Below, one piece after another: positions 30,282-34,895 of a DNA stretch of 64,000 nucleotides. Origin of the DNA: Candidatus Rokuibacteriota bacterium (GTDB lineage Bacteria; Methylomirabilota; Methylomirabilia; Rokubacteriales; CSP1-6); contig QHSP01000048.1 of assembly GCA_003220495.1 (NCBI GenBank), positions 1 to 64,000 on the forward strand, in the 5' to 3' direction. Both the position numbers and the translations under genes were made by a program. The notes below the pieces were generated by a model that was not told the DNA's origin, searched no databases, and saw nothing but the letters and a program-made list of their open reading frames with translations. Positions within the stretch are counted from its first letter, which is position 1, and every line of letters begins with the position of its first letter.

Positions 30282-31679
30282 TCAAATGGCCGGACGGCGA
30301 TCCCTCCAGGGCGACGCCGCCTCGAAGGCGGCCGACGCGGCGAGCACTGTGCCATCGGCGTGGCGGCGCCCGACGATCTGCAGACCGACCGGAAGGCCTT
30401 CGTCGGTCCATCCGGCGGGCACGCTCGCCGCGGGTTGGCCCGTCAGGTTGAACGGATAGGTGAACGGCATCCAGCCGAGCACCGAGACGTCCTGCCCGGC
30501 GATCTCGCGCGGCGGGTGCGCGCCCGCGGCGAACGGGAGCGTCGCCACCGTCGGCATGAGCAACACGTCGAAGCGCTCGAGGAACGTCTGCGCCTCACGC
30601 CAGTATTCCTCGACGCGCGCGACAGCGCGCAGGTAGTCGCGCGCGCTGACCGCGCCGCCGCGGCGGATGAACCGCACGAGCGAGGCATCCATGTGCGGCT
30701 CGGCGTCGGGTAGCCGATCGGACCAGGCGGCGTAGAACTGCGCGGCGATCATCGTCGCGAAGATCTCCTCGGGGTTCTCCCATCCGGGATTGACGACCTC
30801 GACGTGACAGCCGAGCGTCTCGAACGTGCCCGCGGCGTTCTCGCAAACCGCCAAAATCTTTGGATCCACCGCGGCGTAGCCGAGATCGGGCGTCCACGCC
30901 ACGTGCAGTCCCTTCACCTCGCCGTCACACGCCTCGAGGAACGAGCCGACCTCGCGCGGCAGCGAGCCGCGGTCGCGGTCGTCGCCGCCGGCCACGACGT
31001 CGAGCACCGCCGCCGCGTCGCGAACCGTGCGCGTGATCGGCCCGACGTGATTGACGCGCTCGAAACCGCCAAACACCGCGCGGTCCGGGACACGGCCGAA
31101 CGAAGGCTTGAGGCCATAGAGACCGCAGAACGCCGCCGGGATACGGATCGAGCCGCCGGCGTCGCTCCCGAGCGCGATCGGTCCCACGCCGCTCGCCACC
31201 GCGGCCGCGCCGCCGCCGCTCGAGCCGCCGGGCGTCAAGGTCGGATCCCAGGGATTGCGCGTGACGCCGAAGAGCGGACACTCGGTGAACGCCTTGTGGC
31301 CGAACTCGGACGTGTTGGTCTTGCCGAGGAGAACCGTTCCGGCGGCCTTCAGCCGACCGACCGCAAGCGCGTCCTCGTCGGGCACGAAGTCGGCGAAGAG
31401 CCGCGAGCCGCCCGTGGTCACGAGCCCGCGCGTCGGCAAGACGTCTTTGACCGACAGGGGCACGCCGTGGAGCGGGCCGATCGGCTCGCCCTTCATCACG
31501 GCGATCTCCGCCTCGCGCGCGGCGACTCGCGCGACGTCGGCCGTCACCAGGCAGAACGCGTTGAGCGCGGGGTTGACCGCGTCGAGCCTGGCCAGGATTG
31601 CGTCGAGCACCTCGAGGGGCTTGACCGCTTTACGCCGGACGAGATCGGCGATCTCGAGCGCGGAGAGCCACGTCTCCAT
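30282..31679 (-). CDS. amidase signature enzyme
   Basis: Hydrolyses an amide, substrate unknown. 465 residues from ATG 31679 with the Ser-cisSer-Lys triad: Lys in GVPLSVKDVL, cis-Ser in TPGGSSGGGAAAV and nucleophile in LGSDAGGSIRIP. It is not GatA by context: no gatB/gatC nearby. The start sits only 12 nt from a candidate -10, so the mRNA may be nearly leaderless. Divergent from the unknown 392-residue protein. Confidence 0.88.
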   Translation of the reverse strand: METWLSALEIADLVRRKAVKPLEVLDAILARLDAVNPALNAFCLVTADVARVAAREAEIAVMKGEPIGPLHGVPLSVKDVLPTRGLVTTGGSRLFADFVPDEDALAVGRLKAAGTVLLGKTNTSEFGHKAFTECPLFGVTRNPWDPTLTPGGSSGGGAAAVASGVGPIALGSDAGGSIRIPAAFCGLYGLKPSFGRVPDRAVFGGFERVNHVGPITRTVRDAAAVLDVVAGGDDRDRGSLPREVGSFLEACDGEVKGLHVAWTPDLGYAAVDPKILAVCENAAGTFETLGCHVEVVNPGWENPEEIFATMIAAQFYAAWSDRLPDAEPHMDASLVRFIRRGGAVSARDYLRAVARVEEYWREAQTFLERFDVLLMPTVATLPFAAGAHPPREIAGQDVSVLGWMPFTYPFNLTGQPAASVPAGWTDEGLPVGLQIVGRRHADGTVLAASAAFEAASPWRDRRPAI

Positions 31680-31690
31680 TGACAAAACGC

Positions 31691-31700
31691 ATTGTATCAT
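31691..31700. promoter_or_regulatory. overlapping divergent -10 elements
   Basis: ATTGTATCAT reads TATCAT on the plus strand (31695-31700, RNA start near 31707, GTG at 31709) and TACAAT on the minus strand (31696-31691, RNA start near 31684, ATG at 31679). One ten-base element could therefore serve both genes with almost no leader. No convincing -35 on either strand. Confidence 0.4.
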
Positions 31701-31708
31701 TGCGCTTC

Positions 31709-32887
31709 GTGCAGATCGTGGATCGCGGGGGGACGCTCGTCACCGTCCTTCGCCCGACGGCCACGGGGTCGCTGGAAAGCGCGTGGGTTCGGATTCCCGA
31801 CGGCTCGTGGCTCGGCATCGAGCCGCGCGCGACGCGCGAGGCGCCGTGGGGCTGGTCGGATCGCCTCTGGCATGCGGCGGAGCCGCCCGCCAACGGCTGG
31901 CAGGGAGTGCGGCTCACCCTGTTCGAGGCGCTCGACTGGGCGCGGATCGACCGCATTCCCGTCCTCGGCGAGCCCGCGCGCTTGCCGCTCGGCGGCGGGA
32001 CCGCCGTGCTGAACCTCATCGCCGCGCGCGCGGCCGAGCAGGGCGCCGGTCCTCTCGCCTACCGCGGCCCCTACCCGACCGAGCAGCTCTTCCTGGCGCT
32101 GCTCGAGTCGTTCCGCTACGAGCCGGACGTGACCGATCCGCTCGCGACATTCATGGCCGGCGGTCTCAGCTGGCGGCCCGCGCCCTCCGAGCGCCTGTTC
32201 GTGGGCGACGATCTCTACGTGCAGCTGCGCGAGCGGGTCGAGAAGGTCGTCTGGCGCGGCATCACCTACTATCGGCCGGGGTGGCAGGGCGTCGTGCGCC
32301 ACGCCCCTCGGCGCATCGTCGACGCGCCCGACGGCGTGCGGTGCGGGCTCTGGGCTCTCGCCCGACCGCTCGAGGACGCGCTCCTGCTCCGAGCCGACGG
32401 CGGCCTGGACGCGATCCTCGCCGGTGAGCCCGCGCCATCGCCGAGTCAGCCCGTGCCGGCCGGGGTGTGGGCCGGCGTGGCCGCGGTCGTCGCGGCGCGC
32501 GGCGCCGCGCAGCTGGCGCCTTTCGTGGAGTCGGTTGCCCGGGCGTTCTCGCTCGAGTGGGGACCGGTCGCGAGGGATCTCGTTCAGATCGGACGGGGCC
32601 GCGTGAGAATCTCCGGGCGGCTGCGCGACGCGCTCGCGGCGGGGCTGGCGGCGGCGCCGGCCGCGGCGGACCGCGCGGCGCTCGGGCTGGCCGCGATCGT
32701 GGAGATGGCGGCGCTCGTGGGCGATGCGCTCCGGGCGCGCGCTCAGGCCGAGATCGTCGAGCTCGGCAAGACCGAGCTCCCGCCGAGTCTGTCGGGCCCC
32801 GCGGCCTCCGGTGCACGGGGCGGCGCCGAGCGGGCGCGAGACATCACCGCGGGGGTGGAGGCCCTGCTCGCCGACCTCGCCGGCTGA
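31709..32887 (+). CDS. hypothetical protein, conserved-looking
   Basis: 392 residues from GTG 31709; a TTG at 31679 in frame would overlap the divergent amidase ATG. Not recognised. The N-terminal part looks folded and soluble (aromatic-rich, with WGWSDRLWHAAEPP, YRGPYPTEQLFLALLESFRY and WRGITYYRPGWQGV), a loop with Pro follows (near residue 250) and the C-terminal 140 residues are Ala-rich and helical. No signal peptide, membrane span or catalytic motif was seen. It is convergent with the RRE-M50 gene, stops 3 nt apart, so it may belong to that module, but this is only context. Confidence 0.7.
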   Translation: MQIVDRGGTLVTVLRPTATGSLESAWVRIPDGSWLGIEPRATREAPWGWSDRLWHAAEPPANGWQGVRLTLFEALDWARIDRIPVLGEPARLPLGGGTAVLNLIAARAAEQGAGPLAYRGPYPTEQLFLALLESFRYEPDVTDPLATFMAGGLSWRPAPSERLFVGDDLYVQLRERVEKVVWRGITYYRPGWQGVVRHAPRRIVDAPDGVRCGLWALARPLEDALLLRADGGLDAILAGEPAPSPSQPVPAGVWAGVAAVVAARGAAQLAPFVESVARAFSLEWGPVARDLVQIGRGRVRISGRLRDALAAGLAAAPAAADRAALGLAAIVEMAALVGDALRARAQAEIVELGKTELPPSLSGPAASGARGGAERARDITAGVEALLADLAG

Positions 32888-32890
32888 GCC

Positions 32891-34114
32891 TCAGTGCGTG
32901 GCGCTGAAGATGATCCAGACGTTGAAGGCGATGAACGCGGCGACGGACAACGTCGAGAGCACGACGTAGGCGATCCAGAGGAGCTCCTCGCGGCCCTCCC
33001 GCATCCGCCCGGCGCCGGTCAGGAGCCTCTTCGCGTACGTGATCGCGTCGTGCTTCAGCGTGGGCACCCCGAGGGCGTCGACGAGGATGTGGTAGCCGTC
33101 CATCTCGATGAAGCAGAAGGGATAGAGCGCGACGACCAGCGCCTGCCACTGGATGATCCCGGAGGCGGCCGCGAAGGCTTGCGTGAAGCCGCCCGCCGGG
33201 GCTTTGGCGGCGACGATGAAGGCGACGGCGCCGAGGACCAGATGCACGAGCGCGCCCGTCACCGCGGTGACGACGCGGGCGCGGCGGCTCGCCATGAAGA
33301 TGTCGGTGACGTCGATGTAGAACGTGGGCACGAAGCCGTGCAGGAAGGTGAAGCCGAACTCGCGCACGCGACGCCGATAGTGGATGCAGGCCAGCCCATG
33401 CACGAACTGGTGGAGCGCCACGCTGGCGAAGAAGAGCAGCTTGACGCTCAGGATGCCGAGCAGGGCGCGACCGCCGAATCCCTCGAGCATGTCGCGCACG
33501 TCGCGGAAGAGGACCAGCGCCGCCGCGGCGCCCAGGACCGCCAGCACGGCGCACGCGATCGCGGCGATCGGCGTGAAGACGAGGAACCCGCCGTAGTGAT
33601 AGAGCGCCTGGAAGAACCCCTGGACGTTGTGGCTCGAGATCCGGATGCGCTCGAGGCTGGTCAGCGCGAGCTCGAGCGCCCTCACGATGACCCGGCCTCG
33701 GTTGCGCGCCAGCGCCGCCCGGAGCCGCGACCGCGGCTCGAACGTCAGGAGCTGCGCGCGCTGGAGCTTGCGCAGCAGGCTCGGGATGATCTCGAAGTCG
33801 AACTCGCCGTACTTCAGGACGTACGCGGTCGCGATCTCCTGTAGTGAGGTGGCGCCGTCCATCTGATCCCAGAGGAAGCGCTCCTGCGCGGAGAGCAGGA
33901 GGAATCGGTCCGTCGTCGTGTTCTTGAGTACGAAGCCGGGCGCGACGGCCAGTCGCGAGCGGAGCTCGGAGACCTCGTACGATTCCAGCTCGACCCGGCG
34001 CGGGCGCGAGTTGAGGTAGCCGACGACGCTCGCCACCTGGCGGAGCTCGAAGTCTTCCTCGTCGTCGCGCCGGACGAGCAGCTCGAACTTCGCGGGCGCG
34101 GGTCTCTGCATCAC
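32891..34114 (-). CDS. PqqD-like (RRE) and M50-like membrane protein with altered zinc motif
   Basis: 407 residues. Residues 60-125 resemble PqqD-type peptide-recognition domains (TDRFLLLSAQERFLWDQMDG, IIPSLLRKLQRAQLL). The rest has about six hydrophobic segments and the layout of peptide zinc metalloproteases of the M50/YydH type: the HExxH place reads LHQFVHGL, REFGFTFLHGFVPTFYIDVTD follows, and the second motif is EMDGYHILVD. The catalytic Glu is Gln, so proteolysis is doubtful; metal binding by both His and the later Asp is possible. It overlaps the cNMP-binding gene (ATGA). Transport or maturation of the small peptide encoded upstream is inferred, not shown. Confidence 0.75.
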   Translation of the reverse strand: MMQRPAPAKFELLVRRDDEEDFELRQVASVVGYLNSRPRRVELESYEVSELRSRLAVAPGFVLKNTTTDRFLLLSAQERFLWDQMDGATSLQEIATAYVLKYGEFDFEIIPSLLRKLQRAQLLTFEPRSRLRAALARNRGRVIVRALELALTSLERIRISSHNVQGFFQALYHYGGFLVFTPIAAIACAVLAVLGAAAALVLFRDVRDMLEGFGGRALLGILSVKLLFFASVALHQFVHGLACIHYRRRVREFGFTFLHGFVPTFYIDVTDIFMASRRARVVTAVTGALVHLVLGAVAFIVAAKAPAGGFTQAFAAASGIIQWQALVVALYPFCFIEMDGYHILVDALGVPTLKHDAITYAKRLLTGAGRMREGREELLWIAYVVLSTLSVAAFIAFNVWIIFSATH

Positions 34115-34611
34115 CGGGCCTCGACGTCGAAGCCCGTGGCCTCGAGACCCCAGCGGGTCGCCTCGGCGACCTGCAAGGTCGAGCGCCGCAGTCGCTCCAT
34201 GAAGACCTGGACCATCGCGTAGAAGAACTCGGCGGCCGCGCGCGGCGCGGTCTCGGTCATCGCGTGCAGACTGTCACGCCCGAGGATGAGCAGCTCGACG
34301 TCCGTCTCGGCCTGGGCGGTCGCGGACCGCGGCGAGCCATCGAACAGGCTCATCTCGCCGAAGAAGTCGAAGGGCTCCACGCGGACCAGGACCTGCTCGA
34401 CCTTTCCGGTCACCGACTTGGAGATGAGGATCGTGCCGCGCCGAACGATGAACATCTCGTCGCCGCGATCGCCCTCGCGAAAGAGAATCTGGTGCCGGCG
34501 CAGGTCACGCTCGCGCAGCCGTTCGGTCAGGGCGACGAGGTCCGCATCGGAGAAGGATTCGAACACGCGAACGTCGCGCAGGAATGCGAGTGTTTCGGCC
34601 GACGCCTGCAC
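34111..34611 (-). CDS. cyclic-nucleotide-binding domain protein
   Basis: 166 residues, one CRP-type beta-barrel (FREGDRGDEMFIVRRGTILI, VRVEPFDFFGEMSLFDGSPR with the phosphate-binding cassette GEMSLFDGSPRSAT) and C-terminal helices but no helix-turn-helix. So it senses a ligand without binding DNA itself, perhaps acting on the membrane protein it overlaps (ATGA). In NHLM-type peptide systems cNMP-like domains accompany the exporter; that parallel is family knowledge, and its role here is inference. Confidence 0.85.
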   Translation of the reverse strand: MQASAETLAFLRDVRVFESFSDADLVALTERLRERDLRRHQILFREGDRGDEMFIVRRGTILISKSVTGKVEQVLVRVEPFDFFGEMSLFDGSPRSATAQAETDVELLILGRDSLHAMTETAPRAAAEFFYAMVQVFMERLRRSTLQVAEATRWGLEATGFDVEAR

Positions 34612-34631
34612 GGGCGGGATTCGAGCGAGGC

Positions 34632-34850
34632 CTACGTGGCCACGCGGCTGATGAGGCTACTGCGGAACTCGTGCCGCCGCTGACTCGACGGCGTCTTGGC
34701 GAGCCGGACCAGGGCCTGATCGACCGTCGCGCGCTCGGCGTCGCTCAGCTCGTACTCGGCGAGGAGCGGTGCCGGCGTGCGCTGGAGCTCCGCGAGAAAT
34801 TCCGGATCGATCATCACGCGCCCCACCAGCTCTCGCAGCCCTTGCGCCAC
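34632..34850 (-). CDS. small NHLP/Os1348-like peptide, possible RiPP precursor
   Basis: 72 residues from GTG 34850. LRELVGRVMIDPEFLAELQR and PAPLLAEYELSDAERATVDQ match the pattern of nitrile-hydratase-like leader peptides and Franean1_4349/Os1348 proteins (D-x-x-F-x-x-x-L, then A-x-x-x-L-S-x-x-E). The tail (KTPSSQRRHEF, RSSLISRVAT) is basic and Ser/Thr-rich without Cys, and could be a core peptide. Upstream of, and 20 nt from, the cNMP gene. TATGAT ends 6 nt before the GTG, so it may be leaderless. A non-RiPP regulatory role is equally possible. Confidence 0.6.
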   Translation of the reverse strand: MAQGLRELVGRVMIDPEFLAELQRTPAPLLAEYELSDAERATVDQALVRLAKTPSSQRRHEFRSSLISRVAT

Positions 34851-34856
34851 GGGCGG

Positions 34857-34862
34857 ATCATA
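34857..34862 (-). promoter_or_regulatory. -10 box of the small-peptide operon
   Basis: TATGAT 6 nt before the GTG start, with a weak CTATCA 18 nt upstream. The transcript would start at the start codon. The plus-strand ABC_sub_bind gene starts only 46 nt away, so promoters are back to back. Confidence 0.4.
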
Positions 34863-34895
34863 CCAATTTCCCCGACCGTTTGATAGGCTCCGTGC

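Follow-up and report, generated by a model that had tools for sequence, protein, structure and literature searches.

Does an operon that is assembled from parts familiar from RiPP pathways have to make a RiPP? RREs are known chiefly from RiPP enzymes and serve as a flag for natural-product clusters. The question is raised by three adjacent genes in the window, a stretch of 64,000 nucleotides (contig QHSP01000048.1, positions 1 to 64,000) from a Candidatus Rokuibacteriota bacterium, a member of a soil and groundwater group of uncultured bacteria, of which we know no cultured representative. An earlier note on this DNA had read the three genes as a possible RiPP-like module, perhaps ligand-gated. 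The features of the locus are as follows:

34857..34865, minus strand: putative extended -10 promoter element TGGTATGAT, 6 nt 5' of the peptide GTG, recognised by its consensus
34632..34850, minus strand: small peptide of predicted LigA/Os1348 (NHLP-clan) fold, 72 aa, GTG start (NF038399; profile and fold matches)
34111..34611, minus strand: stand-alone cyclic-nucleotide-binding (cNMP) protein, 166 aa (PF00027 at 1.9e-22)
32891..34114, minus strand: membrane protein of 407 aa with a predicted PqqD-fold (RRE) domain and an M50/site-2-protease (S2P)-like part, apparently catalytically degenerate (NF041824; TbiB1 and SpoIVFB fold matches; HQxxH)

The three open reading frames lie on the minus strand in the order that the earlier note had given. 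Its gap of 20 nt between the peptide gene and the cNMP gene also stood, but the second junction is not literally ATGA; it reads GTGATG, so that the cNMP and RRE-M50 genes overlap by 4 nt with a GTG start or by 1 nt with an ATG start. Purifying selection acts on all three genes, with dN/dS values of 0.08-0.36 between close pairs. An extended -10 element resembling TGNTATNAT is located 6-10 nt upstream of the peptide start in 25 of 30 loci, one of which reads TAGAAT, and its conservation at this distance fixes the start codon of the peptide. If the element acts as a promoter, as its sequence suggests, its closeness to the start implies that the peptide gene comes first in the operon and that the mRNA would be leaderless or nearly so. 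Four of the five deepest loci have a purine-rich Shine-Dalgarno-like stretch instead, and three have an upstream TATAAT; judged from these motifs, the family seems to have undergone a switch in how translation is initiated.

When the three proteins were used in tblastn searches all three genes were returned co-linear in 30/30 whole-genome loci. A scan of about 85,000 species genomes by short conserved motifs, which distant versions in other phyla may escape, gave 47 trio loci, and order and strand were kept, with near-constant length, in all 46 intact ones, the 47th being cut by a contig end. Because the genes are co-linear in every one of these whole-genome and intact collection loci, the arrangement is not due to chance. 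The loci of the collection are titled Candidatus Rokubacteria/Rokuibacteriota or Methylomirabilota in 46 cases and Actinobacteria in one. The contig titled 'Actinobacteria bacterium isolate AC_69' (L042) carries a Rokubacteria trio at 82% identity, and its title probably goes back to a mistake made in binning or naming the public record.

When 95 genomes of the phylum were searched with a profile, the trio was recovered, through a full or split orthologue, in 55 of the 57 members of the host's family and in none of the 38 other genomes. The two exceptions within the family are G027, a 1.7 Mb genome without an orthologue, and G030, which has a distant paralogue only. Likewise, a protein search of 59 relatives detected the RRE-M50 protein in most same-family genomes and no match of comparable score outside the family. 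Failure of the three genes to co-occur elsewhere had been named as evidence against the earlier reading; they do co-occur, throughout the host's family.

Next to the trio are genes for an ABC substrate-binding protein, an unknown 402-aa protein, an amidase, a VTT-domain protein and DAHP synthase. The downstream series (402-aa protein, amidase, VTT protein, DAHP synthase, and thrS-infC-rpmI-rplT, named here from their sequences) is conserved in synteny; the upstream flanking genes vary, and tight coupling of the trio is nonetheless retained in nearly all loci. The trio is a vertically inherited chromosomal core operon and not a mobile cluster. The 402-aa protein (31679-32887, plus strand) has no Pfam match, is convergent to the trio with 3 nt between the stops, and adjoins it in 42 of 48 loci.

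The peptide is 72-73 aa long with a mean column identity of 72% among 30 genomes, in which M1, L8, G10, M13, D15, F18, L22, P26, L30, L35, E39, A46, R69 and T72 are invariant. It ends in a conserved [AS]-T, with Thr72 in 30/30. Major-residue identity averages 73% over the last ten residues, the alignment being looser only at a linker (53-62), and neither a hypervariable core nor a cleavage motif was found in it. Close pairs gave dN/dS values of 0.10-0.36. A search with the family profile revealed no credible second copy in the genome, i.e. the peptide is single-copy.

A match to the NHLP clan, on which the earlier reading had been made to depend, was obtained with NF038399 (Os1348 NHLP clan), which matches 30/30 peptides at E<0.01 (best 7.5e-11), although the window copy scores 29.4 bits against a curated cut-off of 40. 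In a profile search of solved structures the peptide matched 6lk7, an NHLP-like 'nitrile hydratase alpha' chain, at 2e-4, followed below significance by LigA-like domains including SonA. The model of the peptide (pLDDT 74) resembles the LigA-like part of DesB as well as SonA and OphMA, two borosin precursors, with E-values that are weak, yet consistent as a set, and a LigA-like fold is thus supported by the modeling. The small helical domain so predicted resembles that of borosin SonA and of Os1348/NHLP peptides (NF038399), but SonA-type borosins have a methyltransferase and a variable core tail, and the trio has neither. In addition, the Os1348 model matches other loci in the same genome, at least one of them adjoining a LigB-type dioxygenase, and an Os1348 match alone does therefore not mean RiPP. 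A stronger Os1348/NHLP match of 61.4 bits, over the cut-off, is present at L141 (G000:C71:5539-5700); it contains one internal TGA and is possibly a decayed NHLP peptide or a LigA subunit.

The third protein had been described as an RRE fused to an M50-like membrane protein, and this call, like those of the peptide and the cNMP domain, was right. PqqD and M50 are weak in Pfam (PqqD at E<0.05 in 11/30 members), but the daptide RRE-M50 model NF041824 matches all 30 members, the window protein at 2.7e-27 (95.9 bits over residues 67-387; cut-off 300), and NF058609 (YydH/LiaK/EpeP) also matches 30/30 (32.9 bits; cut-off 225). No solved structure was found by sequence search. The single-chain structure model is of moderate confidence (pLDDT 69, below 50 in the D339 region). 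Its N-terminal domain matches the lasso RRE TbiB1 (probability 1.00, TM about 0.70 on the target, E about 0.05), which supports a PqqD-fold RRE at the N-terminus, and its membrane part matches the S2P SpoIVFB (probability 0.97, E about 0.05).

The active site of this membrane protein is altered at several positions. HExxH is replaced by HQxxH in 64/64 trio loci where the motif was read. It was compared with 15 PqqD-M50 paralogues of these and related genomes, every one of which has HE..H. Against them the trio protein has Q236 and H291 in place of Glu, Y331 in place of the Asn at D-8, and H342 in place of Tyr, each in 15/15, and residue 334, the Pro position of NxxP, is mostly Cys in the sequences shown. 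The zinc ligands H235, H239 and D339 are invariant; of the hallmarks of an active M50/S2P protease these are thus present, and the Glu of HExxH and NxxP are absent. In SpoIVFB an E-to-Q exchange in the same motif completely abolished proteolysis while the substrate was still held, as seen by cryo-EM (PMC11486902), and the Asn and Pro of NxxPxPxLDG have roles in substrate binding and correct processing (PMC9672952). The loss of the catalytic residues is thus old, fixed and multiple.

The nearest homologues found, at 24-32% identity, are large PqqD-M50-HlyD 'peptide zinc metalloprotease' proteins in the same genomes. These share the PqqD-like start and the M50 core, but their HE..H and NxxP are intact and at least one has an HlyD/biotinyl-lipoyl extension, unlike the trio protein. 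An intact HExxH is seen at L117 (8144-10285), L120, L121, L123, L124, L133 and L134, and no peptide/cNMP trio was detected beside the large proteins. YydH/LiaK/EpeP have a homologous S2P domain; unlike the trio protein they are active HExxH proteases in a radical-SAM epipeptide cluster. The plant S2P pseudoprotease EGY3 is a non-proteolytic homologue that stabilises other proteins (PMC10978774). It is a chloroplast protein without the zinc-binding motif, whereas the trio protein keeps the zinc ligands and has a fused RRE.

In the cNMP protein the phosphate-binding cassette (G85, E86, R95, S96, A97) is invariant among 30 genomes, and so is a C-terminal tail, TRWGLEATGxD (window 34111-34160), which surpasses the greater part of the cNMP domain in conservation and is a possible docking motif. 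The TRWGLEATG tail was not seen on the others of six cNMP-profile hits in the genome, as judged from those translations that were displayed. The genome contains 15 class III nucleotide cyclase domains, which makes a cyclic nucleotide plausible as ligand; with the conserved pocket residues, the predicted ligand-gating is plausible as well.

Taken together, we favour a reading that we hold to be evenly poised, namely that the three proteins form a membrane complex that responds to cyclic nucleotides and is built on an S2P pseudoenzyme, working as a switch or scaffold and not as a RiPP factory. The RRE-M50 protein, with the S2P scaffold and metal ligands retained and the catalytic Glu and substrate-binding Asn lost, should for that reason bind and hold its partner rather than cut it. 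Its RRE would most likely capture the LigA-fold peptide, or else the invariant tail of the cNMP protein, and once the translationally coupled cNMP subunit had bound cAMP or cGMP, this capture would change and the complex would thereby be switched. We infer the physical interaction, the nucleotide ligand, the gating, the absence of proteolysis and the downstream output. Against a pseudoenzyme scaffold speak the usual place of RREs in RiPP enzymes and the moderate confidence of the RRE-M50 model. In addition, a pure scaffold does not need the zinc ligands that have been kept, and the new invariant histidines could mean new chemistry, not none.

Exactly these residues give rise to the main rival, a new metalloenzyme derived from the S2P site. 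In it H235, H239 and D339, together with H291, H342 and possibly H259, would form a different metal centre at which the peptide is modified, perhaps on its C-terminal Thr, and the RRE would bring in the substrate. Zinc ligands retained despite loss of the catalytic Glu, and His at positions that are invariantly Glu (291) and Tyr (342) in the paralogues, are in line with such chemistry. The best hint is the C-terminal Thr: in daptides an RRE-S2P protein is coupled with an invariant, modified C-terminal Thr (PMC10036551). The daptide protein MpaP/DapP (NF041824) likewise joins an RRE at its N-terminus to a membrane domain of the S2P type, and its partner peptide shares the invariant Thr with the trio peptide, which may be a coincidence. 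On the other hand, the operon encodes no redox or transferase partner, and the model is poor in the region that would have to place the new histidines near the metal. We consider a new metalloenzyme unlikely.

The NF041824 match and the C-terminal Thr had pointed to an active pathway of the daptide type, which was rejected. Daptide clusters have an HExxH protein, the DapB/C/D/M enzymes and several short hydrophobic cores, whereas the trio has HQxxH, no such enzymes nearby and one conserved hydrophilic peptide, and no match to the DapB-type RRE protein (NF041823), which serves oxidative decarboxylation, was obtained in the genome at E<=1.

More broadly, the RiPP-like module of the earlier note would consist of a peptide precursor, an RRE-M50 leader protease or exporter and a cNMP gate, with the modifying enzymes encoded elsewhere. 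The parts themselves do fit, as NHLP-clan peptides, RREs (here the TbiB1 fold match) and M50 proteins are all RiPP-associated, M50 proteins work in daptide, epipeptide and pearlin pathways, and TIGR03896 ('bacteriocin-type transport-associated', with cNMP domains) matches the cNMP protein, albeit below its cut-off. A processing module, however, is not supported: it would have to include a core and a maturase as well as something to cleave or export the peptide, and none of these was found. The membrane protein carries HQxxH in all loci read and has lost the Asn of NxxP, and the peptide is conserved and single-copy, with no leader followed by a variable core. As the earlier note had remarked, no maturase or exporter is nearby: among the syntenic neighbours scanned there was no maturase or other modifying enzyme, no leader protease and no NHLM exporter. 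The C39-type NHLM exporter model (TIGR03796) gave many ABC hits, none over the cut-off and none covering its first 130 positions, so that the matches begin only beyond the C39 peptidase region, and an NHLM exporter was rejected on these grounds. Searches against PHROGs gave no significant match. A pearlin-type scaffold peptide with an M50 carboxypeptidase (TglG/TmoG) was also rejected, as no LanB-type enzyme (PF04738) was found, a weak negative given that the control genomes likewise gave nothing. In view of this, the earlier RiPP reading is supported in part only, and we regard a RiPP module as improbable.

Equally doubtful is that the trio consists of three co-inherited housekeeping genes with no joint function, in which case the peptide would belong as a small subunit to something else: core genes share the synteny of the locus, vertical descent can preserve linkage and LigA-fold proteins also act as enzyme subunits, but the coupling stays tight while the upstream flanks change, a promoter-like element precedes the peptide, and the protein distances within the trio correlate (r 0.78-0.87), although shared phylogeny alone yields such values.

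The trio is built from known parts in a new combination, and from a limited literature search we know of no report in which an RRE is fused to a bacterial S2P pseudoprotease. If the switch or scaffold reading is carried one step further, RiPP parts may, somewhat more tentatively, have been turned into a lineage-wide signalling complex around a cyclic-nucleotide-gated S2P pseudoprotease that makes no natural product. If this is true, an RRE-peptide pair can be ordinary cell machinery outside natural-product clusters, and genome miners would be warned of a class of RRE false positives. The S2P pseudoproteases would moreover gain a bacterial example, and cyclic nucleotides would be linked to a protein of the S2P fold.
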